A stretch of 64,000 bases of DNA from Aliikangiella sp. G2MR2-5 (GTDB lineage: Bacteria; Pseudomonadota; Gammaproteobacteria; Enterobacterales; Kangiellaceae), in the NCBI RefSeq assembly GCF_015687155.1, contig NZ_JADPQF010000001.1, positions 124,001 to 188,000 of the forward strand, read 5' to 3'. Position numbers and translations under genes: made by a program. Of this stretch, positions 24,657-38,391 are shown in pieces. The stretch's first letter is position 1. The number at the start of each line of letters is the position of its first letter. The notes under the pieces were generated by a model. It saw only the letters and a program-made list of their open reading frames with translations, had not been told where the DNA came from and ran no database searches.

Positions 24657-27527
24657 ATGAAACGACTATCAATAAGCATTCTGTCTGCGGCAGTCCTTAT
24701 GGCGGGCTGCGCTGGCATTAATCAGAAATCTTCAAGTTTGACCGATAATAGTAGTGTTATTGTCAGTCCGAACGATACTCGCGGTTACGAAGCTGTCACT
24801 CTGGAAAACGGTATTACTGTAATGTTGGTTTCTGATCCCAGTGTAGAGAAGTCTGCTGCTGCCTTGAGTGTTGGTGTCGGCCTGCTGAATGACCCTATGA
24901 GCCAGCAAGGGATGGCGCACTATCTTGAGCATATGCTATTTATGGGAACTGATAAGTATCCTGAAGTTGCTGGCTACAGTGAGTTTATGTCAAAAAATGG
25001 TGGCTCTTCAAATGCATACACCTGGTTAGATATTACCAACTATATGTTCGAGATTAACAATGACGCCTATGATGAAGCGTTAGACCGTTTTTCTGACTTT
25101 TTTAAAACACCAAAGCTCTATCCTGAATATACAGAAAAAGAAAAAAATGCGGTGAATGCTGAATGGTCTATGCGTCGAGAAATGGATTTCTTTGGTATGT
25201 TCAAGTTAGGACGCTCGATGATGGGGGAGCACCCTGCAAATCGCTTCCTGATTGGTAATCTTGAAACTTTGGGCGACAAAGAGAATTCAAAGCTTCACCC
25301 GGAAACTGTCGAGTTCTATAACCGGTATTATTCCGCCAACATTATGAAAGTTGCGTTGGTCTCAAATAAGCCGCTTAGTGAGATGAAGTTATTAGCTAAG
25401 AAATACTTCTCGAACATCAAGAATAAGTCCATAGAAAAGCCGGAAGTTGAACAGAAGCTAAACTTTGATGAGTTTGGTGGCAAGAAAATTCACTATGTCC
25501 CTAACCAGGATATCAAGCAGCTGATTATCGACTTTACAATTGAAAACAATGTTGATGACTATAAATCCAAGCCCAATCGCTATATTGCCTATCTGATCGG
25601 TAGCGAAATGCCGGGAACTCCAGCTTATCTATTGAAAAAAATGGGGTTGATATCAAATTTAAATGCCTCTGCAACTCCAGATATGTATGGTAATTATGGA
25701 CGTCTGGCGATTAATATCGATTTGACCGATGCCGGAATGAAGCAGCGAGAAATGATTACTTCGGTCGTTATGAACTATATCGAAAAAATCAAAAAAGAAG
25801 GCGTTGATAAAAAATATTTTAAAGAAATCAAGACGTCTTTAAACAATCAGTTTCGCTTTCTGGAAAAAGGTAATGCCTTCAGTTACGTGTCAAACCTGAC
25901 CGATGAAATGCAAACCTATTCTGCAAGAGATGTGATTGTAGCACCATATACATATGAGACTTTTAATGCTGAGGCTATTCGTTCAGTTTTGTCTCAACTA
26001 ACTCCAGAAAGATTGAGAGTCTGGTATGTTAGCAAACAGGAGCCCCATGATAAGAGCATGCATTTTTATGATGGCAAATATAAAGTTGTCGATATAGCGC
26101 AAAGTGAAATTGATTCATGGAAAGATTCTTCTGGCCTGGCTTTATCTTTGCCTAAAGTGAATACCCTATTGCCTGAGGCTTTCGATCTGAAAACTGAAGA
26201 CAATAAGCAAACAAAGCCTGAAGTAGTTTATAACGAAAATGGAATCAAAGTCTGGCAATATCCTTCTCAAGCTTTTAAAACACAACCTAAAGGTGTTCTT
26301 CGCGTCTATTTCAATAGTCCGGAGAGACAACAGGGTATTGAGGGACAAATTCTCTTCTCTCTTTGGAGTGACCTGTATAATTTGCGTCAGAGTGCTTTAG
26401 CGACGGAAGCTTCGATTGCTGGAATGGGACTCTACCTGAATGATGCAAATGGACTTGAACTCCTGGTCAGCGGATTTACCGATAAACAGGCCCTTTTACT
26501 TGAAAAAGGACTGGCTGCAATGATATTTGATTTTGATGATAAAGCGTTTACTCAAGCTGTCGACCGTTTTATCCGTAATATTAAGAATCAGGGCAAACAG
26601 TTTCCAATTTATCAGCTTTTTGGCAAAGTGACTGCATTAACAACCAAAGCAGGTTACTCCGATGATAAGTTGATAAATGCGGCTGAAAATCTTAAAGCAG
26701 AAGATCTGAAAAACTTTATGCGCAAAGTGATGAAAAACAACCAGATCCGTGCTTTTGCTTTCGGAAACTATGATCAAAGTGACATAGAGTTTTTTGCGAA
26801 AAAGATCAATGAACGTCTGCCTGAAGGACGCAAGATTACAGAGTATACAAGAACTCAGCACTGGAAACCTTCGCAAGGGGAAGTTATCTCGTTGAAGCAG
26901 AATCTGGATGTTGCTGATGTCGCTATTTACGATGCACACTTTCATCCGGAGCCTACACTGACGCAGGAAGCTCGTGGACGAGTGTTAAGATCACACTTGA
27001 GAACGCAGACTTTTGAAACGCTGCGTACGGAAGAACAACTAGCTTATGCAGTTACTGCAATGGCGACTCAAGTTAAGGATTACACTGGAATTGGATTTGC
27101 GATTCAGACACCTGTGAAAAATGTAGTGGATATGCAGGCGCGCTTTGATGATTTTAAGAAGGAATATGTAGCGAAATTGAATGCCATTACTCCTGATGAG
27201 TTTGAAAAACTTAAAGCGAGTGTGTTGGTTGAGCTTAATGAGAAACCTAAAAATCTAAGAGAAGAACAGGCTCCTATGTTGAATGACTGGTATCAGGAAA
27301 AATGGGACTTTAATTCTCGACAAAAGTTAATTGCTGAAGTCGAAAAAGTTTCACTTGACGATATCAAGACTTTTTATCAAGAAACCATTAATAATCAATC
27401 TAACGCAAGGCTCTCAATTCAGTTAAGAGGAAGCAAGTTTAAAGACAAGCCGTTTGCGTCGATAAAGGGGGAGAGGGAAGTTAAAGATTTTGAGAAATTC
27501 CACAAGGAAATGAAGTATCAAAAGTAG
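24657..27527 (+). CDS. Pitrilysin-family M16 metallopeptidase, lipoprotein
   Basis: Encodes 956 residues, the full four-domain length of pitrilysin/insulysin enzymes. The inverted zinc motif HYLEH is at residues 88-92, with the distal glutamate expected in the EKNAVNAEWSM block near 165. A lipobox (LMAGC) puts lipidation at Cys18, so it is exported and anchored. The C-terminal half keeps RTEEQLAYAV, used for substrate binding in the family. These enzymes degrade small proteins and peptides up to about 50 residues. AAGGATT precedes the ATG. Confidence 0.93.
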   Translation: MKRLSISILSAAVLMAGCAGINQKSSSLTDNSSVIVSPNDTRGYEAVTLENGITVMLVSDPSVEKSAAALSVGVGLLNDPMSQQGMAHYLEHMLFMGTDKYPEVAGYSEFMSKNGGSSNAYTWLDITNYMFEINNDAYDEALDRFSDFFKTPKLYPEYTEKEKNAVNAEWSMRREMDFFGMFKLGRSMMGEHPANRFLIGNLETLGDKENSKLHPETVEFYNRYYSANIMKVALVSNKPLSEMKLLAKKYFSNIKNKSIEKPEVEQKLNFDEFGGKKIHYVPNQDIKQLIIDFTIENNVDDYKSKPNRYIAYLIGSEMPGTPAYLLKKMGLISNLNASATPDMYGNYGRLAINIDLTDAGMKQREMITSVVMNYIEKIKKEGVDKKYFKEIKTSLNNQFRFLEKGNAFSYVSNLTDEMQTYSARDVIVAPYTYETFNAEAIRSVLSQLTPERLRVWYVSKQEPHDKSMHFYDGKYKVVDIAQSEIDSWKDSSGLALSLPKVNTLLPEAFDLKTEDNKQTKPEVVYNENGIKVWQYPSQAFKTQPKGVLRVYFNSPERQQGIEGQILFSLWSDLYNLRQSALATEASIAGMGLYLNDANGLELLVSGFTDKQALLLEKGLAAMIFDFDDKAFTQAVDRFIRNIKNQGKQFPIYQLFGKVTALTTKAGYSDDKLINAAENLKAEDLKNFMRKVMKNNQIRAFAFGNYDQSDIEFFAKKINERLPEGRKITEYTRTQHWKPSQGEVISLKQNLDVADVAIYDAHFHPEPTLTQEARGRVLRSHLRTQTFETLRTEEQLAYAVTAMATQVKDYTGIGFAIQTPVKNVVDMQARFDDFKKEYVAKLNAITPDEFEKLKASVLVELNEKPKNLREEQAPMLNDWYQEKWDFNSRQKLIAEVEKVSLDDIKTFYQETINNQSNARLSIQLRGSKFKDKPFASIKGEREVKDFEKFHKEMKYQK

Positions 27528-27548
27528 ATAGACTCTCTAACCATTAAA

Positions 27549-27577
27549 AAGGCCGACTAACCGTCGGCTTTTTTATA
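27549..27577 (+). terminator. Rho-independent terminator after M16 protease
   Basis: GCCGAC and GTCGGC with a five-base loop are followed by TTTTTTAT, 22 bases past the stop codon. Confidence 0.9.
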
Positions 27578-27707
27578 CCGCAATTTAGTACATAAGCTAT
27601 ATCGACTGTTTTTGTATTTCATCCTGATAATGACGATAGGCATCATCTTTAAGATGTATAAAATCATCTCTTCATTTGTTGACTGTGGTCGAAGCCAGGC
27701 CTGATTT

Positions 27708-27878
27708 GTCGAAGACAGGGTTGAATTCACTAATGGCTGGCAAAACTTGTCTGTTGGTGATATCGAAGCTGCCTCTGGCGCGCAAGGTGTGACAGTGGGG
27801 ATCAACCATAGAGTTGTTGATTCAGGCGAATTTGCATATTTTATCGATGATGTTTATTTTATGACAAAAGAAAGGTGA
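27708..27878 (+). pseudogene. C-terminal remnant of a secreted carbohydrate-binding-like protein
   Basis: A 56-codon frame without start codon follows a TGA at 27702. It reads FTNGWQNLSVGDIEAA, then VTVGINHRV and GEFAYFIDDVYFM before the stop, which looks like the end of a beta-sandwich domain found at the C-terminus of secreted enzymes (WxxLxV and FDDVxL pattern). No upstream part of the gene remains. A short CAGG duplication with GTCGAAG lies at its left edge. The stretch from 27578 to 28023 contains nothing else recognised. Confidence 0.45.
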
Positions 27879-28023
27879 TGTATTGTTTATAATAATATCA
27901 AAATCTCGCTTTGAGTATCGCATGATTGGCAAGTACAGCTAACTAGACTATAGTCGACAATACAACCAACTATAATCTTTCGGCTATTGCAGTTAAATTT
28001 AGTCGCTTCTTAATAAAAATAAT

Positions 28024-28575
28024 ATGATCGAAAATATTACTCAGCTTCTATCAGATGTTAATAAAGGCGATGAAAAGGCAATGGAAAGTCTGTTTCCTGC
28101 CATTTACAAGGAGTTAAGACAGATTGCTCACAGACAACTTGGTAAAGTCTGGTCGGTTGACACCATTTGTACTACCGTACTGGTCAATGAGGCCTACCTG
28201 AAGTTAGTGGGAAGTAAAAAGCTTGAGAGTAACGATCGTAGTCACTTTTTTGCGATAGCAGCAAAAGCCATGCGCCAAATTCTCATTAACTATTCCAAAC
28301 AAAAGCAGACCTTGAAGCGAGGATTAGAATGGCAAGCGACTGCCAGTATTGATGAATTGTCTGTAAATAGCAAGCTGGAGCAGATAATCAGTATTGATGA
28401 AGCCTTAAGGGAGTTGGAGTCGTTAGATCCTGATTTGGTCAAACTGGTTGAGTTAAGGTTTTTTGCAGGCTTGAATGAGCAGGAAACAGCAAAAATACTG
28501 AATATAAGCGAACGCAGTGTACGGCGAAACTGGCAAAAAGCAAAAGCATTGTTGGCGCGAGCTCTATCCACCTAG
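28024..28575 (+). CDS. ECF sigma factor of the TIGR02999 (kinase-associated) family
   Basis: Encodes 183 residues. The opening ITQLLSDVNKGDEKAMESLFP, the block TTVLVNEAYLKLV (about residues 50-62) and the region-4 ELRFFAGLNEQETAKIL match TIGR02999/ECF43 sigma factors. In studied members (EcfP of Vibrio parahaemolyticus, EcfK of Xanthomonas citri) the sigma factor lacks the usual acidic residues in region 2.2 and becomes active when a partner kinase phosphorylates a threonine there; Thr50/Thr51 lie in the matching place here. The kinase gene follows 184 bases downstream. No ribosome binding site of note precedes the ATG. Confidence 0.87.
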   Translation: MIENITQLLSDVNKGDEKAMESLFPAIYKELRQIAHRQLGKVWSVDTICTTVLVNEAYLKLVGSKKLESNDRSHFFAIAAKAMRQILINYSKQKQTLKRGLEWQATASIDELSVNSKLEQIISIDEALRELESLDPDLVKLVELRFFAGLNEQETAKILNISERSVRRNWQKAKALLARALST

Positions 28576-28759
28576 ATGAGGGGGACTGCATGGAGCTAAG
28601 TGGATCAAATTCAACACAAGGGAACTGACTAGATGTAGCCGGAACTAGTTAGGTAAACCCAGAACCAACATTAGATCTTCCTTTCTGACCGGTAATGAAT
28701 ATCGTCAGGTTTAAAACAAGTTCCTGTTTTATTGGGCACTAACTGTTAAGGAAAGTACA

Positions 28760-31684
28760 ATGGCAATAGGAATTTCCAAATCTCGGTGGCTAGAAATCCA
28801 AACTGCTCTGGACGACGTGCTAGAGCAACCTCAATCAGAACAACTAAACTACATAGAAAAATATCGTGACGATATGTCGTTGTATCTTGAGTTGAAGCAG
28901 TTGCTTGATGAAGACCTTTCTCAGTTAAACCTACTGGAAGAATCTGCGTTAGATCTATTTAATCAAGAATCAATCAGTGTTGAATCAAATCGTGAAAAGA
29001 CTGGTGAGCCTGAAAAAGAGTCAGCCTTAACCCTGGAGGAACAGTCAGCAATAGTTACTGCAACTCAAAGATTTCCAAACCTGGGTAAAAAGTACCAGAT
29101 TGTTGAAGAAGTTGGCTGTGGTGGAATGGGAAAGGTTTACAAAGCTAGACTTCTGAGTGATTCATTTGAAAAACTGGTAGCTATAAAAATTTTGACTACC
29201 GGAAAATCAAGTGAACACCTGGTTCAGCGATTCGAAAAAGAACAAAAGCTTTTGGCCAGGCTTGAACATCCCAATATCGCAAGGTTGCTTGATGGCGGTA
29301 TTTCTTGTGACCAAACTCCATTTTTCGTAATGGAATATATCGAAGGAGAGCCCATCGATAGTTATTGTGATAATAACCAATTGAGTATCAAGTCTCGTCT
29401 GCGCTTGATCTTACAGATTGTTGATGCGCTAGATTATGCCCACAAAAACCTGGTCGTCCATCGAGATATTAAGCCTTCGAACATATTAGTAACTAGCGAA
29501 GGAAAGGTTCGGTTAGTTGATTTTGGGATCGCTAAGTTAATAGACGAAGAAAAAGAGCAGCAACTAACTCAAACTGGAAATCAGATTTTAACGCCGGGTT
29601 ATGCTGCACCAGAACAATTGCTGGACCAACCGATTACTACCGCGACTGATACTTATTTGTTAGGTCTCGTCACCTATCAGCTTTTGACTGGACGACAGGC
29701 ATTTCAAGATCTTGCTGGCTCTTTGCTGGAAGTGGCACAAATTATGTGCTCTGAACCACCTACAAAACCAAGCGTCATCAATGAAAAGGTTGGGATATGC
29801 GAAAACAGCAAAATTTTTCAATCGCGTCAGGCCACACCCACTCAATTAAAAAATACGCTGCAAGGTGATTTAGATGCAATTATTCTTAAATCACTCAATG
29901 CGAAAGTTCAAGATAGATATTCGTCGATGACAGCATTGCGTTCTGATATTGAAGCATACTTTGAAAATCGCCCCATCAGCGCTCAACAGTTGACTTTTGT
30001 TTATCAGTCAAAAAAATATCTAAAACGTCACTGGAAAGGAGTGGGCTCGCTGGTATTATTTGTTGCGATGCTAGCAGCCTACACAACAACGCTAAAAATT
30101 CAATCAGAAAAGATTCAAGCCGCGCTAGCACAAAGTAATCTTGAGAAAAATAAAGCCCAAAAAATTTCAGATTTCATGCTAGATATTTTTAAAGCGGCAG
30201 ATCCCAATATCTCCGGTCTTAACAAAATAACAGCCGATGAGTTATTGCAAAAAGGACACCAGAAAATTCTCAATGAACTAGACTCTGCACCACTAATTCA
30301 AGCCCATATGTTGACTAACTTGGGCGAGATATATTTCAGTCAGGGAGAGTTGGACAAGAGTACAAAGTTGCTAGAAGAAGCGTTAGAAAAGCAAAGGCTA
30401 CAGAGTAGGCCTGACTCATTTACGCTTGCGCATACATTGACCAATCTTGGCGTTAGCTATGTTAATAGCAACAAATTGTCAGAAGCTCAAAATTTATTTG
30501 ATGAAAGCCTGAGGCTTCATCAAGCATTACTTGATGACGGTGAAAATAAACTGACTATTGAGTATGCCGAGGCTCATATAGCACTCGCTCAGCTCAAAAG
30601 AAAACAGGGAAATACCAAAGAATCCCTTCAGCTTTACCAAAAAGCTATCGATACCATTAACCAAGTCGGTGAAGAGGAGCATGAACAAATGGCGGTAGCG
30701 CTAAATGGCCTGGCGAGCATTCAGCAAGATCGCGGTGAGTTTAATGCTGCTTTGGAAAATATGAAAAAGGCAATTCGAATACATGAAAAAGTCCTGGGAT
30801 CAGAGCACACCTATTTTACAATCTATTTGAATAACCTGAGTATTCTCCTTATAAGTATGGAGCGATTCGATGAAGCGCTAGTTCATAGCAAACGCGCTTA
30901 TCAGATACAACAAAATATTTTGCCAAACAATCATCCTTATTTTTCAGCGCCTTTACGTTCTTTGGGGAAGATTTCTCATGCGCGAGGAGAGTTGTCAAAG
31001 GCAAGGGAGTATTTTTTAGAAGCTCTGGATAATAATCTGAAATCAAGTTCAAAAAATAACTTTATTCGTGCTGTCCTCTACGCAAGGCTTGGACAGGTTT
31101 CACAGGACTTGGGAGCGTTAGAAATTGCTGACGACTATTACCAGAAGATGCTTAATGTTTATCAGGATGTTGCTGCTGGAGAGAGGGTTGTATCTAGAAG
31201 TTTACATCTGCTAGCTAAGCTCGCTCTACTAAATGGAGAGCTGTCGAAAGCTCGAAGTTATTATCAAAATGCAATCGAAAGTCTTCCTGATAATGGTATC
31301 TATTTTGCCATTAGTCAGTTAGGTTACGCACAGTTGATTCTGTATTTATCCGCAAAGCAAGATGACTCCATTGCAAAAACTACTAATTTCGTTTCTACAA
31401 AGCAGGCACTGAGCGAAGCACAGGAAATGGTAACCAATGCAATGACTATTCTGATGCAGAAGTTACCTGCCAGTCATTCTTTAATTGCCGAAGCCAAACT
31501 GACAAATGGATTATTGAATCAGCATCTTTCAATTAGAAAACAGGCTGAAGAAACTAGAGTCCCTGATAAGCACAATAGTAAATCCATCGTAGAAACTTAT
31601 AAGCAACTTAGTAAGCTTTCAGTCTATCAATATGGTCATCGGCGACTATTGTTAGATCTGGCTCGAGAAATTATCGAAAAGTAG
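28760..31684 (+). CDS. Membrane Ser/Thr protein kinase with TPR repeats
   Basis: Encodes 974 residues. A helical leader (1-105) precedes a complete Hanks-type kinase domain (about 111-400): GCGGMGKV loop at 119-126, Lys143 in AIKIL, HRDIKPSN with Asp236, DFG at 254-256 and APE at 283-285. A single membrane helix (about 425-443) is followed by a periplasmic or extracellular part with about ten TPR-like repeats. The layout fits sensor kinases that turn on TIGR02999 sigma factors, and the sigma gene is just upstream. The outside TPR part would sense a protein or peptide signal (inference). AAGGAAAGTACA precedes the ATG. Confidence 0.92.
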   Translation: MAIGISKSRWLEIQTALDDVLEQPQSEQLNYIEKYRDDMSLYLELKQLLDEDLSQLNLLEESALDLFNQESISVESNREKTGEPEKESALTLEEQSAIVTATQRFPNLGKKYQIVEEVGCGGMGKVYKARLLSDSFEKLVAIKILTTGKSSEHLVQRFEKEQKLLARLEHPNIARLLDGGISCDQTPFFVMEYIEGEPIDSYCDNNQLSIKSRLRLILQIVDALDYAHKNLVVHRDIKPSNILVTSEGKVRLVDFGIAKLIDEEKEQQLTQTGNQILTPGYAAPEQLLDQPITTATDTYLLGLVTYQLLTGRQAFQDLAGSLLEVAQIMCSEPPTKPSVINEKVGICENSKIFQSRQATPTQLKNTLQGDLDAIILKSLNAKVQDRYSSMTALRSDIEAYFENRPISAQQLTFVYQSKKYLKRHWKGVGSLVLFVAMLAAYTTTLKIQSEKIQAALAQSNLEKNKAQKISDFMLDIFKAADPNISGLNKITADELLQKGHQKILNELDSAPLIQAHMLTNLGEIYFSQGELDKSTKLLEEALEKQRLQSRPDSFTLAHTLTNLGVSYVNSNKLSEAQNLFDESLRLHQALLDDGENKLTIEYAEAHIALAQLKRKQGNTKESLQLYQKAIDTINQVGEEEHEQMAVALNGLASIQQDRGEFNAALENMKKAIRIHEKVLGSEHTYFTIYLNNLSILLISMERFDEALVHSKRAYQIQQNILPNNHPYFSAPLRSLGKISHARGELSKAREYFLEALDNNLKSSSKNNFIRAVLYARLGQVSQDLGALEIADDYYQKMLNVYQDVAAGERVVSRSLHLLAKLALLNGELSKARSYYQNAIESLPDNGIYFAISQLGYAQLILYLSAKQDDSIAKTTNFVSTKQALSEAQEMVTNAMTILMQKLPASHSLIAEAKLTNGLLNQHLSIRKQAEETRVPDKHNSKSIVETYKQLSKLSVYQYGHRRLLLDLAREIIEK

Positions 31685-31685
31685 G

Positions 31686-31718
31686 CAAGTAGGGAAAAAA
31701 TAGCTTTATCCCTACTTG
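31686..31718 (+). terminator. Hairpin between convergent kinase and Cys-repeat genes
   Basis: CAAGTAGGGA and TCCCTACTTG form a 10-bp perfect stem two bases past the kinase stop codon. It could end transcription from both directions; the A-rich loop and lack of a strong T run lower confidence. Confidence 0.6.
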
Positions 31719-31740
31719 ACTGGCGATAAATGACAATGAA

Positions 31741-32637
31741 CTAGTGATCGAATTTATCGGGTGGTACGCAGGCGTAAGCGGGAATTGTAGTAAAGTTATC
31801 CGGATTAGAAGTATCGAAGCTAGGAATATTAACCTGTTTCTTTAAATAACCTTCTGGACAGCTCAGTGGTTCTTTAGAAATGCGAAAATTATCACCAGGC
31901 ATTTGCTCACAGTTAAAATCTCTTCCACATATGTGCAGGTTGTAGTCCGGCAAACAAAATCCGCCATCGATTTTTCTACTCCAGTTCAGCGGACACTCAC
32001 CGCGGGGTATTTCAAAATCTTCTTCTTGCGGCTCTGCTACTAGTGCCAGGTTGTTTGCGATACAAAAATGAAAACCTGGAGGTTTAATAAAACCTGGCTC
32101 ACACTCGATAGGCGGTGCGGCAAAGAGACCAACAGCTTCATCAGGAGGCACGCTGGTTCCCCCTCCATCCGGATTGATAAGCTTTAGCATTTGGTCCTGT
32201 TTAATTAATGAGAGCTTTATATCAAGACAAATATCAGAGTCTTGTGGTCGAGAGTGGTTTTCTGGACAGTAGCTTTCGAATTTTCCTGCGATCAGATAGG
32301 TTGTTTCTCTTGCTGATACAAAATGTTTTTTTTCCGTACAGAATAGAGTGCCGATAATCTGTTCATAGTTTTTTTCACATTTGCCATCACGAGACAGGTT
32401 TGATACTACCAAGGATGCTAACTCATTCGCGATACAAACGTTAGCGACGGCGCTTTGCCTGAAACCTTGTGGGCAGTCGGACAAGTTCGTCGAATCATAA
32501 GTAGAATCTGAAGTTGTGTTAAAAGTACTCAAATTCTCACTCGTTTCTGAGTTGACCGTCAGGCTGACACAAAATGGAATTAAAACTCTAAGAATGATTG
32601 CGTTGAAGGTACAGAGTTGTGCTCCGGGTGAATTCAT
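31741..32637 (-). CDS. Secreted protein with CX12C repeats (divergent paralogue)
   Basis: Encodes 298 residues from the ATG preceded by AAGGAGCAAATC; longer forms overlap the upstream gene and are not supported. A hydrophobic start (FNAIILRVLIPFCVSL) suggests export. Five units keep two cysteines exactly 13 positions apart: CPQGFRQSAVANVC, CEKNYEQIIGTLFC, CPENHSRPQDSDIC, CEPGFIKPPGFHFC and CPLNWSRKIDGGFC, with a longer sixth unit at the end (SCPEGY to YACVPP). It is a diverged copy of the gene upstream. No known family is recognised. Confidence 0.68.
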   Translation of the reverse strand: MNSPGAQLCTFNAIILRVLIPFCVSLTVNSETSENLSTFNTTSDSTYDSTNLSDCPQGFRQSAVANVCIANELASLVVSNLSRDGKCEKNYEQIIGTLFCTEKKHFVSARETTYLIAGKFESYCPENHSRPQDSDICLDIKLSLIKQDQMLKLINPDGGGTSVPPDEAVGLFAAPPIECEPGFIKPPGFHFCIANNLALVAEPQEEDFEIPRGECPLNWSRKIDGGFCLPDYNLHICGRDFNCEQMPGDNFRISKEPLSCPEGYLKKQVNIPSFDTSNPDNFTTIPAYACVPPDKFDH

Positions 32638-32670
32638 GATTTGCTCCTTTCTAAACGTCCTTGTAACAAC

Positions 32671-32699
32671 AAATTGCGCTCGTTTATGGAGCGCAATTT
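32671..32699 (-). terminator. Hairpin between the two Cys-repeat genes
   Basis: AAATTGCGCT and AGCGCAATTT make a 10-bp perfect stem flanked by A and T runs. It follows the stop codon of the upstream gene by about 15 bases and could reduce readthrough into the second gene. Confidence 0.7.
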
Positions 32700-32713
32700 T
32701 TCCTTTCCCAGTA

Positions 32714-33637
32714 TTAGTTAACGCCATTGGGCATATAGGTAACCGTTTTGGCTGCGCAACTTTGAGTATTAACAAAGCCGACAATTTTTCCTGATTTGTC
32801 GAATACCGGCATGTCCCACCATAGTTGGTATTCATCGCTAGCGCAAGTTCTGGATTCCCGAGATTTCAAGATGTTTTCTACCTTGGTTAAACTGGGATCC
32901 AGATTCCCACACTCATCGTGGCACGCTGTGGTTTTGTTTTCAGGCATACAAAAACCATTTACTCCTTTATACCAGCCCTTTGGACACTCGCCTTCAGGAA
33001 CGGCTAGAGGGTTAATTAGTTCGTTACCACCTTCGACAACTGTTGATGCAACACAAAAGCGTACACCTGGTGGACGGTAGAAGCCAGGTGGGCAATCTGA
33101 AGCATTAGGAAGCGGTAGCTGGGTAGCCAGAAAGTTTTCAGGCACACAAAAACGCACCCCTACCGGTTGGTGAAAGCCCTCAGGACAACCTGGCTCAAAT
33201 TTGACTAGCTTTACTTCTCGCTCGATTGTATCCAATACCAGGTTATCCGCTACACAAATGGTAGAACCTACAGGACGGGAAAATCCTGGAGGACAATCAC
33301 CTCCGATAACACCTTCCAGAAGCATCATATTATCAGGAATTTGAATTTGCAGGTTTGTTGCTACACAGAACCTCACGCCGGGAACACGCTCAAAACCGGG
33401 AGGACAGTCTTCTCCTGGGGGGGCTTCGGCGGTGGGTTCTATGGTTAAGTTTTCCGCTGCACAGGCCAAGCCAGAAGGTATCGGATAGAAGCCTTCCGGG
33501 CAGCCGTCGATTCCGCCAATAGTAGTGGTAGTAAAAGTTGTATCTGTTGTACTTGAGCTTCCTGCTTGAGCAGGGACAGCAAATACTGCTGTTAAGCTGA
33601 GTAGTATCCCTGTAAAAGAAATTAACGTTTTATTCAT
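32714..33637 (-). CDS. Secreted protein with six CX12C repeats
   Basis: Encodes 307 residues: signal peptide (1-25, ending VPAQA), Thr-rich linker, then six units with cysteines at 46/59, 78/91, 115/128, 151/164, 182/195 and 218/230. The clearest unit reads CPPGFYRPPGVRFCVA. Each unit begins after a short acidic spacer, and the period is about 31-37 residues. A C-terminal block of about 70 residues has further cysteines at 239, 243, 265 and 294. The constant spacing suggests one disulfide-closed loop per unit. It is unlike EGF or other repeats I know. Its place next to the sigma-kinase pair suggests regulation by it (inference). Confidence 0.75.
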   Translation of the reverse strand: MNKTLISFTGILLSLTAVFAVPAQAGSSSTTDTTFTTTTIGGIDGCPEGFYPIPSGLACAAENLTIEPTAEAPPGEDCPPGFERVPGVRFCVATNLQIQIPDNMMLLEGVIGGDCPPGFSRPVGSTICVADNLVLDTIEREVKLVKFEPGCPEGFHQPVGVRFCVPENFLATQLPLPNASDCPPGFYRPPGVRFCVASTVVEGGNELINPLAVPEGECPKGWYKGVNGFCMPENKTTACHDECGNLDPSLTKVENILKSRESRTCASDEYQLWWDMPVFDKSGKIVGFVNTQSCAAKTVTYMPNGVN

Positions 33638-33966
33638 TACTCTATCTCCATGTTAGTTAGTAGTGAGGAAATTGAACTCCTCTAACTGGAGATAACAGGA
33701 ACCACAGAAAATCCGGCCAAAAAAATCACAAAAAATTCAAAATAAAATTAACTATTTGAATAGTAAGGAAAAAGTTTTAGATTTATATCGATGTTTCGAG
33801 GCTGGATTGAGAAAAAGCAGGTTAATTCAGCTAACGGATATTTATAATTCTGTGGTAGGGAAGTGATTATAAGCGCTCGAATGGTACTGCTGTTTTGCTA
33901 TTCGCCTGGGTTAATTGTTCGCGCGAAATAAAAGCGCGAACTTGCACGAATTCTTATCCGGTAAAT
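33638..33966. other. Intergenic region with a hairpin
   Basis: AT-rich leader of the Cys-repeat gene on one side. A GTTCGCGC/GCGCGAAC stem (33917-33924 and 33934-33941) lies just after the dioxygenase stop and may end that transcript on the minus strand. No gene is seen. Confidence 0.55.
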
Positions 33967-35112
33967 TTAGTATTCAGGTTGTCTTCTTTGTGGTTGTTGT
34001 ATTGCCGAGTCATTAAATAGATGAGTGATTAAATTGTAGCGAGTTCCACTAGTCGTCTCCTGTACTTCGTGTAGTAGTGAGCTAGAGAAAATCATTACAG
34101 TTCCAGGCTCTGCTCTATAGGGATGATCGCTAAATTCTTTAAAAACAACACCCCCTCCTTGATAGTCATCATTCAAGTTCATTGAAAACGCAAAGCGCCT
34201 GTACGCGACTTTTGGGTTGGTATTATCTCTGTGTCCCATCTCATTGCCTCCGCGTTTACCGACATATCTCGCAATATGCAGGTCTTCACGTCGGGTAACA
34301 TCAAACGCAAACGCTTTTTTAATCATGGGATTGACTCGTTGATGAGTTCTTTGGTCGATAAATTGAGTCAACTTTTTATCTCTAATTACCTGATCAACTC
34401 TATCTTGCCGGTTATGTTCGTAAATAGGCATCTTAAAATCTGTAGTAAAACCTGCCGTTTGGCTTCCAGATACAAAAAAGTTTCCCTGGGTTTCGAATGA
34501 GTCAATAAGCATCTTGCACTCATCACGTGTAAATACATTGGGAATTGTCAGGACGGGAGCATGAAATGGGTACCACTTTTCATTCTCGCTTTGCTGTGGA
34601 GGTGTAATTTGTTCCATAATATCTCTAATTGTTACATTGATATCTTGAGGATCGTCAAACCAGGAGCGAATTTGTCGAAGCCTGGTAAGTAAGACAATTC
34701 TGACTTGATGTCCATGATTTTTATGAAGACCGTAAGTAGCATGTATTGTACCTCCAGAGTCAGAAAGTACCGGGTTAGCAAATCTCGAGTCTTCTTTAAG
34801 CTTCTTATTAATAGACGCGTCACTGTTTGAGTGTATTGCTAGTACGCTGGCATTGCTATTGGTTAGCCGTTGATTGTTTTCAGCAAATGACCGTAAAATT
34901 TCGAGCGCTGTCGATTCTCTGGTGTTATTCAGAAATATTAATATTAAATGCCTGCCCGACAGGTGATCGTCTGCCAGGTTTAATATACGGCCGTCTTCAT
35001 CTCGTGATTCAAATGGTTTGGCTAAGTCTCCAGCTGATAGAGGTTGCACAAACTGTTTAATCAGAGGATCTGCAATTTCATATGTAGGTTTCATATTGTT
35101 CATATGGCGCAT
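33967..35112 (-). CDS. Redoxin-like domain fused to 2OG-Fe(II) dioxygenase
   Basis: Encodes 381 residues. The first 170 follow the AhpC/TSA fold (FESRDEDGRILNLADD, LILIFLNNTRES, ANPVLSDSGGTIHATYGL), but the site where a peroxidatic cysteine normally sits is NNTRES, so it is unlikely to be a peroxidase. The second half is a prolyl-4-hydroxylase-type oxygenase with GHRDN (His and Asp near 290), a distal His in SSLLHEV (near 347) and Arg in GTRYNL that would bind 2-oxoglutarate. No signal peptide. The substrate is likely a protein or a small molecule; unknown. Three in-frame ATGs occur at the start; the first is used here. Confidence 0.85.
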   Translation of the reverse strand: MRHMNNMKPTYEIADPLIKQFVQPLSAGDLAKPFESRDEDGRILNLADDHLSGRHLILIFLNNTRESTALEILRSFAENNQRLTNSNASVLAIHSNSDASINKKLKEDSRFANPVLSDSGGTIHATYGLHKNHGHQVRIVLLTRLRQIRSWFDDPQDINVTIRDIMEQITPPQQSENEKWYPFHAPVLTIPNVFTRDECKMLIDSFETQGNFFVSGSQTAGFTTDFKMPIYEHNRQDRVDQVIRDKKLTQFIDQRTHQRVNPMIKKAFAFDVTRREDLHIARYVGKRGGNEMGHRDNTNPKVAYRRFAFSMNLNDDYQGGGVVFKEFSDHPYRAEPGTVMIFSSSLLHEVQETTSGTRYNLITHLFNDSAIQQPQRRQPEY

Positions 35113-35402
35113 ATTAACTTATATTTCCTTCCTAACTCAATCGCTAACTCGATTAATAGCATTACCTTTGTTGTTCATTGTATGCAATATAATCCGTTTT
35201 GATTATTGTGCTTTGCAATAAGTATTCTTCAGAAAAGTATGTCGATTAAAAATTGAGTAATAAAAACAATAGTGATGATTTAAAATAAAAAAATTCAACC
35301 TGCATAATCAACATCCTGTTTAAACTGAGATTTTAATTTTGCATAAAAACGCTCTGGTTAAGAGGATGCTTGTAAAGGAAACTTATAAAGAAATCTGTCC
35401 GA

Positions 35403-35957
35403 TCACTTTAGTTCTTTTTCAAACTTCAGCGCTAGTTTTTTTATACCTTCACGCTTTTGAACTGCTTCATTTATCAAGCTTTGCTCGATACCTCGTTGCT
35501 TGCCTAGTTCGATAAATCTGTCGAGCTCTGCTACTTTTTCTCTTGCAGCAATGATATAAGATCGTTTGAGTTGAATCCTGGATTCTTGTTCATATTGAGC
35601 ATATAGCTCATGATCGGCGATCTGTTGTTTAGATGCCCGATTGTTAGTGAAACTACCTGATAATTGGGGGAGGTCGGCTGGTGGGACATTGATAGAACGT
35701 GCAAGGCTGGCAATCGCTTGATTGTCAAGTTTGATCTGATTTCCCAATTGTTTTTCTTTGATGACTAGTTCCAATTCAGATTTGAAATTGGGTAGATTTT
35801 TATCGCTTGTTTGTTTCGCAATATTGGAAATGTTAGGATCCTTCGCTGAAAAATTTTCTCTGTCTAGCGGAATTGGGTCTGGACTTTTACCATTTGTGAA
35901 CAAGTAGAGACATGTGCTAGCTATAACGAAAAAAAGACTAAGCAAAAATTTATACAT
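35403..35957 (-). CDS. Membrane-anchored helical periplasmic protein
   Basis: Encodes 184 residues, family not recognised. A single N-terminal membrane helix (FLLSLFFVIASTCLYLF) anchors a periplasmic, highly charged helical domain rich in Lys, Glu and Gln. Its start overlaps the stop of the parvulin-like gene by eight bases, so it is the third gene of an operon with the phospholipase-like gene. The anchored helical shape recalls lipase-specific foldases, but the sequence signature of that family was not found. Confidence 0.62.
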   Translation of the reverse strand: MYKFLLSLFFVIASTCLYLFTNGKSPDPIPLDRENFSAKDPNISNIAKQTSDKNLPNFKSELELVIKEKQLGNQIKLDNQAIASLARSINVPPADLPQLSGSFTNNRASKQQIADHELYAQYEQESRIQLKRSYIIAAREKVAELDRFIELGKQRGIEQSLINEAVQKREGIKKLALKFEKELK

Positions 35958-37131
35958 TGATTGTGATCCGTATTTGTTTTTTTAGTTTTCTTAGTAGAAA
36001 TTCGTAGCGTTTTCTGGCATGTTTTTTTGCAATTTCCAATGACGCGATATATCGTACTGTTTCGCTTTCAAGCGGATAGTAGTCATATTTGACATCGACT
36101 ACAGAAACCAATGTCCATGTTTTGACAGGAGAGAGTATCGGTTCGCTAACTTTATTTACAGGCAGACTAAATGCTAAATTATTCAACCACTCATTATTTT
36201 TGAGATGCCATTGCGTTTTTTTTTCTACTTGACCATTATCTAACTGGTCTTTAAACGTTTCGCTCAATCGTCTGGAAGAAAACTCCCAAGCAGCATATTT
36301 GACCTTCTGCTTGAATTTGAAAGACTCTCTATGAGCGTTATAAAAATCTTCAATATCTTTGCTGGTAACCTGCTTCTTGAAAGTTCTCAATGAATCGTTA
36401 TTGCCGTGTTGATTGAGTGATATTCCGTAATGGTCTCGTAACACATTTCTAAAATGTAAGGATTTGAAAATAGCCTTTGCCATTGAAAGTTCGCTCTCTG
36501 ATTTGTTCTTACAGTATTTTTTGTAGGAGATTTGAAAGCCGATTTCTCGAGAAATAATTTGGTGGTCGCCTTCAAATAGTCTTTGCTTATCTTGAATGTT
36601 TAAATTATTAAACAATGTTAGCAGGCTAAATCTTTTATATTTATCGAGCGGTAAAAGAATAACTTTATCGAGTGAGTGCTTTTGTTCGTCGGATAATACA
36701 TATCCAAGTCTCGATGTCAGTTTGAAATTACCAACCAGTTTTTTTAACTGAGGTAGAGTAAATTTCCTGGATGGATTTTCATCTTCCGAACTTAGTATGT
36801 TTTGCGGAAACTGTGAATGACAGAAGTTAATTATCTGCCTATTAATATGCCAGCTTAGAGAGTAATCAACTTCACTTAACTTTAACAGTTGTGGCTGCGT
36901 TTCTAACGTGTACTGATAGATTAACCTGTTATCCACCAGCTCTTCCGAAAAACGTGTTTTGTCGATCTCTTTGTTTGGTATCCAATGAGAATAGAGCCAG
37001 TCAAAAGTTAGCCGATCGATATAATGATTGCCAATCTTAATCGCGTACTTGCCGTTAAAGGCGTGGAGTGGGTAGACTGCAAGCAGCAGCCAACCCAACG
37101 ATAGGTAACTTGCTATTTTCAAGACTTTCAT
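35950..37131 (-). CDS. Exported parvulin/SurA-like protein
   Basis: Encodes 393 residues with a signal peptide (ASYLSLGWLLLAVYPLHA). The C-terminal third holds a degenerate PpiC-like pattern: EDFYNAHRESFKFKQKVKYAAWEF, then LPVNKVSEPILSPVKTWTLVSVVDVK and the closing basic helix typical of SurA/PrsA proteins. Many usual parvulin residues are absent, so isomerase activity is doubtful and a chaperone role is more likely. Six bases separate it from the phospholipase-like gene upstream, and it overlaps the next gene. Dedicated chaperone for that enzyme is inference. Confidence 0.62.
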   Translation of the reverse strand: MKVLKIASYLSLGWLLLAVYPLHAFNGKYAIKIGNHYIDRLTFDWLYSHWIPNKEIDKTRFSEELVDNRLIYQYTLETQPQLLKLSEVDYSLSWHINRQIINFCHSQFPQNILSSEDENPSRKFTLPQLKKLVGNFKLTSRLGYVLSDEQKHSLDKVILLPLDKYKRFSLLTLFNNLNIQDKQRLFEGDHQIISREIGFQISYKKYCKNKSESELSMAKAIFKSLHFRNVLRDHYGISLNQHGNNDSLRTFKKQVTSKDIEDFYNAHRESFKFKQKVKYAAWEFSSRRLSETFKDQLDNGQVEKKTQWHLKNNEWLNNLAFSLPVNKVSEPILSPVKTWTLVSVVDVKYDYYPLESETVRYIASLEIAKKHARKRYEFLLRKLKKQIRITINV

Positions 37132-37137
37132 AACAAT

Positions 37138-38151
37138 CTAAAAGCGAGTCATTGCATGGTTAAGGATATGAACCACCATTGCAATTGCGTGAGGCACGAC
37201 CTCTCGGGCTACTACCAGACGATCGGCATGAGATGTGGAATGAAGGACTGCGCCTCCATTGGCATAGGAAAAAGCACCTCCTTCGGTGAGAATTGGGCGA
37301 ATATCTGAACTTGAAGGATCGAGTACGGTAAAACTTTCCAGTGCAGTTGTTACTTTCTCAAAGTCGTTTAGTCTTTCCGACTCATAATAGTCTTTAACCC
37401 ATCCTTCCCAGCCAGAATGGTTTAAAGCTGAGGTTGTCCAGGTGTGATGAGGTTGTAGTAAATCTGTCGCATGCATTACGAACCCCAGTGATTGAATGTT
37501 AGGTTGATTCCAAAACTTCGAATACCAGTATTGCGCCAGATTGTCGAGAGGCTGGAAAGGGATGGTCTCAAAATCTTTATACATGCTGTAGTTTGAATAG
37601 CTATCAATACGATAATTGCTTTCAGTAATCTGGTAAGATTCATATTCTGAATCTTCACCAAACCAGCCTTTTTGACCTCCTCTACCGTCATCAAGATGGT
37701 CTCCTCGTAGCCAGGTTGCTGCCATATTGTCGACATCTCCCCAAACAGTTAGCTTGTCATAGTTGTAACCACCAATGTCATTGCCGTGAACATCGACTCC
37801 TTGGGTATGATTCTGAAAGTGCCAATAAGAGGTATAATTAACAATGCTTTCAGCGATTCCCCATAGCGGTGCATTCACACAGTCACCGGTAACAGCGCCG
37901 CATATGAAAGTATCCGCAAAATCGTCTACATCGTAAGCTCCCTGACCGAGTCTTTGCGCAAGTTCCTCAACGGTTATCCCTGCTGCTAGTGCGACTGCTT
38001 TCAATTTGTTATATGCCGTTGTTTCTGGATGGGCTTTCATGTAGGCGATTGCATCGAGGACAATTCGTTTGTGAGTTTCCTGTTTGTAGGCAAACGTTGG
38101 ATTAGAGAGACTCAGGAATAACAGTCCGATTATTATCCGTTTAAATAGCAT
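37138..38151 (-). CDS. Zinc-dependent phospholipase C/P1-nuclease-like secreted enzyme
   Basis: Encodes 337 residues. The ATG at 38149-38151 is chosen because the signal peptide (IIIGLLFLSLSNPTFA) starts there; an in-frame TTG lies 36 bases upstream. The mature part begins YKQETHKRIV and contains HFQNH and HATDLLQPHH, the metal-binding pattern HxxxDxxxxHH of zinc-dependent phospholipase C and P1 nucleases. W and H residues at the N-terminus of the mature form also fit. Such enzymes hydrolyse phospholipids or nucleic acids outside the cell. It is the first gene of a three-gene operon. Confidence 0.74.
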   Translation of the reverse strand: MLFKRIIIGLLFLSLSNPTFAYKQETHKRIVLDAIAYMKAHPETTAYNKLKAVALAAGITVEELAQRLGQGAYDVDDFADTFICGAVTGDCVNAPLWGIAESIVNYTSYWHFQNHTQGVDVHGNDIGGYNYDKLTVWGDVDNMAATWLRGDHLDDGRGGQKGWFGEDSEYESYQITESNYRIDSYSNYSMYKDFETIPFQPLDNLAQYWYSKFWNQPNIQSLGFVMHATDLLQPHHTWTTSALNHSGWEGWVKDYYESERLNDFEKVTTALESFTVLDPSSSDIRPILTEGGAFSYANGGAVLHSTSHADRLVVAREVVPHAIAMVVHILNHAMTRF

Positions 38152-38391
38152 GTTTCTGGCTCTTGGTATAATGAATGAGAGCTTCAAAATTTAGGCGATT
38201 TATATGACATATTCTTTAAAGTAATAAGAAGACTTAAAGAGAATGGGTAAAAATAAAGTGAAGAGATATTTAACTAAGAGTGAGATTGGGAAATTATCCT
38301 GTTTGGTGATATTTCAACTAACTTAGCGTATGATGCCTGTAAATCGTATCCTGCTTTACAGGATATTATTACCGATGAAAAAGGAGAAGCA

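Follow-up and report, generated by a model that had tools for sequence, protein, structure and literature searches.

ECF43 sigma factors that are activated by a kinase have been described (PMC8999054, PMC13147305). The group is defined by an xTTA motif standing in place of DAED (PMC8999054, PMC13147305). In Xanthomonas citri the PknS/EcfK pair controls a type VI secretion system (T6SS) used against amoebae (PMC13147305), and in Vibrio parahaemolyticus the PknT/EcfP pair is linked to polymyxin resistance, with the second Thr of the STTA motif being phosphorylated (PMC8999054). The locus reported here resembles EcfK/PknS in that an ECF43-like sigma gene lies beside the gene of a membrane TPR kinase and in the position, 51, of the expected acceptor Thr. 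It differs from it in the output: the described target is a T6SS, whereas here a conserved promoter-like site precedes neighbouring genes of an exported Cys-rich protein family. With EcfP/PknT it shares the kinase-activated kind of sigma factor (STTA there, CTTV here), unlike that pair in that EcfP/PknT serves a response to polymyxin and that a CX12C gene is not mentioned for it in the available part of PMC8999054. The sigma-kinase pair is thus of a known kind; the new element is an exported partner, conserved like its shared promoter-like site. Our survey of the open-licence literature on kinase-linked ECF sigma factors and CPW-WPC proteins found no such module in titles and abstract openings, covering for some topics only some of the matching papers.

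The window, a 64-kb stretch of the 5.02 Mb genome of Aliikangiella sp. G2MR2-5, carries four genes within 28024-33637, as had been proposed from inspection of its sequence. The sigma factor gene (28024..28575, plus strand, 183 aa) is followed on the same strand by the gene of a Hanks-type Ser/Thr kinase (28760..31684, 974 aa), and tail-to-tail with the latter lie two minus-strand genes for the CX12C proteins B (31741..32637, 298 aa) and A (32714..33637, 307 aa). The original prediction spoke of two convergent genes; the CX12C pair does converge on the kinase gene, but the two genes themselves are arranged in tandem. For protein B the most likely start is the ATG at 32637, downstream of AAAGGAGC, which gives the 298-aa product; a 364-aa ORF (31741-32835) overlaps the protein A gene. 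A conserved promoter-like site, TGGCCGGATT-N11-CTGT (33695..33719, minus strand), starts 82 bases before the protein A ATG, and a weak possible copy, CGTCAGGTTT-N11-CTGT (28703..28727, plus strand, score 12 of 14), is placed ahead of the kinase gene. A hairpin masking the ribosome site before the protein A ATG was considered and rejected (z-scores of -0.85 and -0.89, no clear improvement over shuffled sequences).

Both flanks of the locus were also inspected. Just 5′ of the sigma gene, at 27690-27880, the broken end of a reading frame looks by eye like the remnant of another gene. Beside the CX12C genes, at 33967-35112, an AhpC/TSA domain is fused to a PKHD-like 2OG-Fe(II) dioxygenase. This gene is present in two of 40 genomes of the window's family and absent from two further CX12C genomes, G001 and G011, and was therefore not counted in the module. 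We also set aside the idea of a prolyl hydroxylase, which had come from the CPPG-rich repeats adjoining the gene.

The sigma factor was assigned to the TIGR02999/PF07638 kind with scores of 185.8 bits (TIGR02999, cut-off 126.15) and 160.2 bits (PF07638, cut-off 21.1), in agreement with the TIGR02999-type gene originally predicted. In this protein, the DAED motif of sigma2.2 gives way to an uncharged motif that contains a phosphorylatable Thr (xTTA in ECF43 factors, CTTV at residues 49-52 here), and Thr50 and Thr51 are located where they had been placed. By analogy with the described pairs, T51 is the expected phospho-acceptor. The acceptor Thr is kept in all eight sigma factors of the module that we examined, in the contexts CTT(V/A/S), STTA or NATI. 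As in other ECF43-type loci, a Ser/Thr kinase is encoded by the next gene and no anti-sigma factor was found: among the family matches listed for the nine scanned proteins of 24657-38187 there was none to an anti-sigma family.

The kinase contains a Pkinase domain (residues about 110-390) with intact HRDIKPSN and DFG motifs, C-terminal TPRs and one membrane-helix-like stretch (residues ~427-444, recognized by eye from the sequence), which bears out the transmembrane TPR kinase first proposed. The Hanks motifs, the by-eye membrane helix and the C-terminal TPRs are together those of a PknS-like TPR receptor kinase, and the top PDB match by sequence was 9eed, that is X. citri PknS according to a 2026 FEBS J. 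paper (PMC13147305). By analogy, the TPR part would be periplasmic. In a tree with eight other sigma-paired kinases of the window's family, which lack CX12C genes, the nine whole kinases from CX12C genomes formed one clade (99/97, and 100% of 200 bootstrap trees); long branches are seen for four rows that fall outside the clade and for G1166 within it. No CX12C gene was found in the 8.7 to 15 kb around each of the eight other sigma-paired kinases. Identity to the window kinase over the TPR part was 44% for G011 and 38% for G864, compared with 22-29% for the eight non-CX12C kinases.

The exported proteins are, as predicted, built of CX12C units, C-P-x-G-F...C with 12 residues between the cysteines. 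Protein A has five such pairs and one CX11C, and protein B has five; both open with the same Cys spacing (12-18-12-23-12) and they are paralogues with 25% identity. By eye, a signal peptide ending in AQA before G26 can be seen in protein A and a weak one in protein B. Protein A contains 16 Cys and protein B, with its first 30 residues removed, 14. An even number of Cys was counted in all 13 mature CX12C proteins (signal peptides trimmed by eye; related rows are not independent), which fits full disulfide pairing. After trimming, the proteins range from 146 to 302 residues. Their mean distance is 0.74, larger than that of the TPR part (0.65) or the kinase domain (0.48).

An AF2 model of protein B built from 13 rows was of good confidence (pLDDT 79.6, pTM 0.72) and consists mainly of short strands; an earlier model of protein A from 5 rows had a pLDDT of 42 and was discarded. 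Foldseek with the protein B model gave no PDB or viral-library match at E ≤0.001 (best E values of 1.7 and 0.59), and VIA-align gave nothing at Z ≥2 among 376 chains. Such results, obtained for a predicted model with PDB and viral libraries, do not prove a new fold. At the level of sequence, no match to the CX12C proteins was found in the PDB, the two window proteins had no family in NCBIfam or PADLOC, a plasmid search with protein B gave no match, and in Pfam there was none beyond a half-domain match to PF09717 (CPW_WPC).

As regards the latter match, the CX12C proteins resemble the apicomplexan CPW-WPC proteins (PF09717, TIGR01492) in being exported and made of repeated Cys-rich units. Protein B scored 28.1 bits trimmed and 27.4 untrimmed against PF09717 (cut-off 23), protein A scored below the cut-off, and the score under TIGR01492 did not reach the NCBIfam cut-off. 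Among the 13 CX12C members, eight matched PF09717 at E ≤1 and two rose above the cut-off. Unlike in CPW-WPC proteins, the match covers half a domain (profile positions 8-40 of 59), and WxC at the repeat ends, a named feature of that family (PMC3637178), is absent by eye from both window proteins. With half-domain matches only and two of 13 members above the cut-off, kinship with CPW-WPC proteins seemed doubtful, and we did not adopt it. A PF09717 search over 61 genomes returned nothing, missing even the window's own protein, and is uninformative.

CX12C genes were searched for in genome samples that overlap one another. With protein A, three of 80 relatives matched: the own genome, G001 (a Kangiellaceae MAG) and G011 (Pleionea sp. 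CnH1-48); the locus is carried by 3/40 genomes of the window's family. A CX12C profile matched three of 394 genomes in the order sample. In a class sample of 369 it picked up the own genome and, falsely, one other; in a phylum sample of 398 it picked up the own genome, G864 and one more, again falsely. Among 209 genomes around G864, seven matched, G864 included, and these represent one family and six genera. A scan of named genomes with narrow patterns found only G001 and G011. Two matches were judged false and left uncounted, namely G391 (two internal stops, an 18-aa frame) and G924 (an internal stop, 19 bits, surrounding ORFs that look unrelated). The real CX12C genes thus total ten genomes in two families of Gammaproteobacteria.

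Results of the locus comparison showed a close linkage of the CX12C genes to the kinase gene; co-occurrence of sigma, kinase and CX12C genes had been named beforehand as a check on the prediction. A TPR kinase gene lies tail-to-tail with CX12C genes in 9/10 of these genomes (the window, G011, G864, G1204, G1112, G1141, G1166, G1181 and G1150). Seven of the nine have a gap of 5 to 92 bases between the two, and one gene intervenes in G011 (gap of 1108) and in G1141 (gap of 2447). In the tenth genome, G001, the kinase gene is interrupted where contigs end. One contig carries the C-terminal kinase piece, which faces the CX12C genes, and a second holds the sigma gene and the N-terminal kinase piece; we infer the same tail-to-tail arrangement across the contig break. 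Counting G001, a sigma gene stands directly before the kinase gene in eight of the ten. The contig of G864 starts at the kinase. In G1141 (L060:13051-15951) the kinase and CX12C genes are kept without a sigma gene in a 19.9 kb stretch, as judged by tblastn with three sigma factors at E 0.01. The pattern that would have spoken against the association, CX12C genes being common without the sigma-kinase pair, was not seen among the ten genomes. Scoring in the order sample was limited to eight candidates per genome; there, the closest sigma factors, three in number (E ≤4.9e-66), sit in the three CX12C genomes; the next closest, from G002, has 45% identity and its genome is without a CX12C gene.

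A shared promoter motif upstream of 33637, also named in the original prediction as something to look for, was found. The motif, TGKCCGGWTT-N11/12-CTGT, was defined by aligning the regions upstream of the CX12C operons of the window, G001 and G011. Seven of eight CX12C units beyond this defining set scored 13-14 of 14 (G864, both G1204 genes, G1112, G1141, G1166 and G1181). For G864, the first G1204 gene, G1141 and G1166 there was no choice of the scored stretch, and all reached 13 or 14. For the second G1204 gene and for G1181 the match was already known when a later Met than that of the longest ORF was taken. For G1112 the presumed operon start was scored, again with the match known, an exported gene preceding the CX12C gene on the same strand; no site was present in the 350 bases directly before the CX12C gene itself. 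The remaining unit, G1150, scored 10 even with a later Met taken.

Among control genes of the same loci, 1/175 scored 13, this being the gene divergent from the G864 CX12C gene, and two scored 12. Random 320-base stretches of these loci, with the true sites left in, reached at least 13 in 45/4000 cases. A weaker, earlier test in G011 alone gave 44/5000 equally good shuffles. In the own genome a stricter pattern had one match, the CX12C site, and its reversed control none. A looser pattern matched 2, 2, 1, 0 and 2 times in G000 (the own genome), G001, G011, G002 and G003, and its reversed control 0, 0, 0, 1 and 2 times; with seven matches vs. three over five genomes, lone matches therefore mean little without their position. 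Three of the seven are CX12C sites and three fall within ORFs, among them a G003 match that lies ~270 bases upstream of the next gene. The second looser match in the own genome had no ORF of at least 100 aa behind it on the same strand in the 1.5 kb read. A pattern with the spacer fixed at 12 had no match in the window, whose spacer is 11.

The motif was not seen upstream of the sigma genes (best score of 10 among the eight scored), and therefore there is no sign of self-activation. Two other kinase upstream regions lacked it as well (at most 10). As these eight sigma and two kinase upstream regions reach no more than 10 and a control gene can score 12, the score-12 copy ahead of the window kinase may be due to chance.

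Several loci depart from the common layout. In G864 the gene divergent from the CX12C gene (L047:4522-5436), whose product is probably exported, has its own near-perfect site (score 13), which makes it a possible second target. In G1112 the conserved site and the CX12C gene are separated by a gene (L059:6850-7821) whose 323-aa product is probably exported, so that the operon may have extra members. In G1150 (L063:9454-10437 and L063:13248-13826) the promoter motif is absent and the sigma factor has NATI instead of CTTA; the module there may be decaying or rewired.

From the directly observed gene linkage, kinase clade and conservation of the promoter-like site, together with what is described for related pairs, the following course of events can be proposed. 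The kinase would sit in the membrane with its kinase domain in the cytoplasm and its TPR sensor in the periplasm, as in PknS. An envelope signal would lead it to phosphorylate Thr51 of the sigma factor, supplying the negative charge missing from sigma2.2, as suggested by EcfP and EcfK. The active sigma factor would then transcribe the CX12C operon from TGKCCGGWTT-N11/12-CTGT, as the genome comparison indicates; that this sigma factor, and not another regulator, reads the motif is our inference. The CX12C proteins would be exported and folded by disulfides, to judge from their signal peptides and even Cys counts, placing the response outside the cytoplasm, where they could also meet the TPR part of the kinase. 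We consider it probable, on these sequence comparisons, that the locus is a dedicated envelope-signalling module in which the CX12C genes, driven by the sigma factor, are its main target. Our confidence is slightly reduced by the fact that, for three of the seven promoter matches outside the defining set, the scored stretch was picked when the match was already known. The best reading is that a known switch, like EcfK/PknS, has been wired to a new exported output. The original suggestion that the exported proteins are targets of the pair thus appears well supported by linkage and site, while the roles of ligand, decoy or armour that were offered with it stay conjectural, the distance test described below giving p = 0.13.

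Chance neighbourhood, or common inheritance of a large locus without any functional link, could be argued from the fact that only 3/40 genomes of the window's family hold the locus. We regard it as highly improbable, as two families with differing flanking genes have the tail-to-tail order, the conserved promoter-like site and one kinase clade in common. As to their role, the exported proteins may be pure effectors that never contact the kinase, such as a surface coat, or an inhibitor or adhesin directed at predators, toxins or other attacks on the envelope. Known relatives do switch on protection (T6SS against amoebae for PknS/EcfK, polymyxin resistance for PknT/EcfP), and the CX12C proteins combine export with richness in disulfides and fast sequence change. 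Yet an effector would not need the one fixed kinase clade with which it is partnered in the loci examined, and no fold match suggests a function; we give this explanation a serious chance that still falls short of even.

Alternatively, the CX12C proteins may in the first place be the periplasmic partner of the kinase, binding the TPR part and holding the kinase off (or on), so that the sigma factor would make the regulator of its own kinase. Many ECF systems similarly produce their own anti-sigma factor. The pairing of CX12C genes with the kinase is at least as strict as with the sigma factor, given that G1141 has no neighbouring sigma gene; the sole promoter-placed pattern match in the own genome is the CX12C site, which would make the exported proteins the apparent main product; and in PknS the kinase seems to be held in check by the periplasmic part (PMC13147305). 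Against this, co-evolution of the TPR and CX12C parts by distances was not significant in nine genomes (partial r = 0.27, permutation p = 0.13), and the sizes of the trimmed proteins vary widely over the range given above. We hold a partnership of this kind to be possible, at a tentative level. A stronger form of it, a closed periplasmic feedback in which the sigma factor's main product, an exported disulfide-built protein of unknown fold, binds the TPR sensor of the activating kinase and its damage or loss serves as the alarm, seems to us rather unlikely.

To our knowledge, the signals to which kinase-activated sigma factors respond, and many of their direct targets, are not known. Here the putative sensor, the switch and the exported product are found side by side in eight loci (one of them across a presumed contig-break junction), seven of which have the promoter-like site. 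With sensor, switch and product co-located, the questions of signal and of target could therefore be addressed in one reporter strain.
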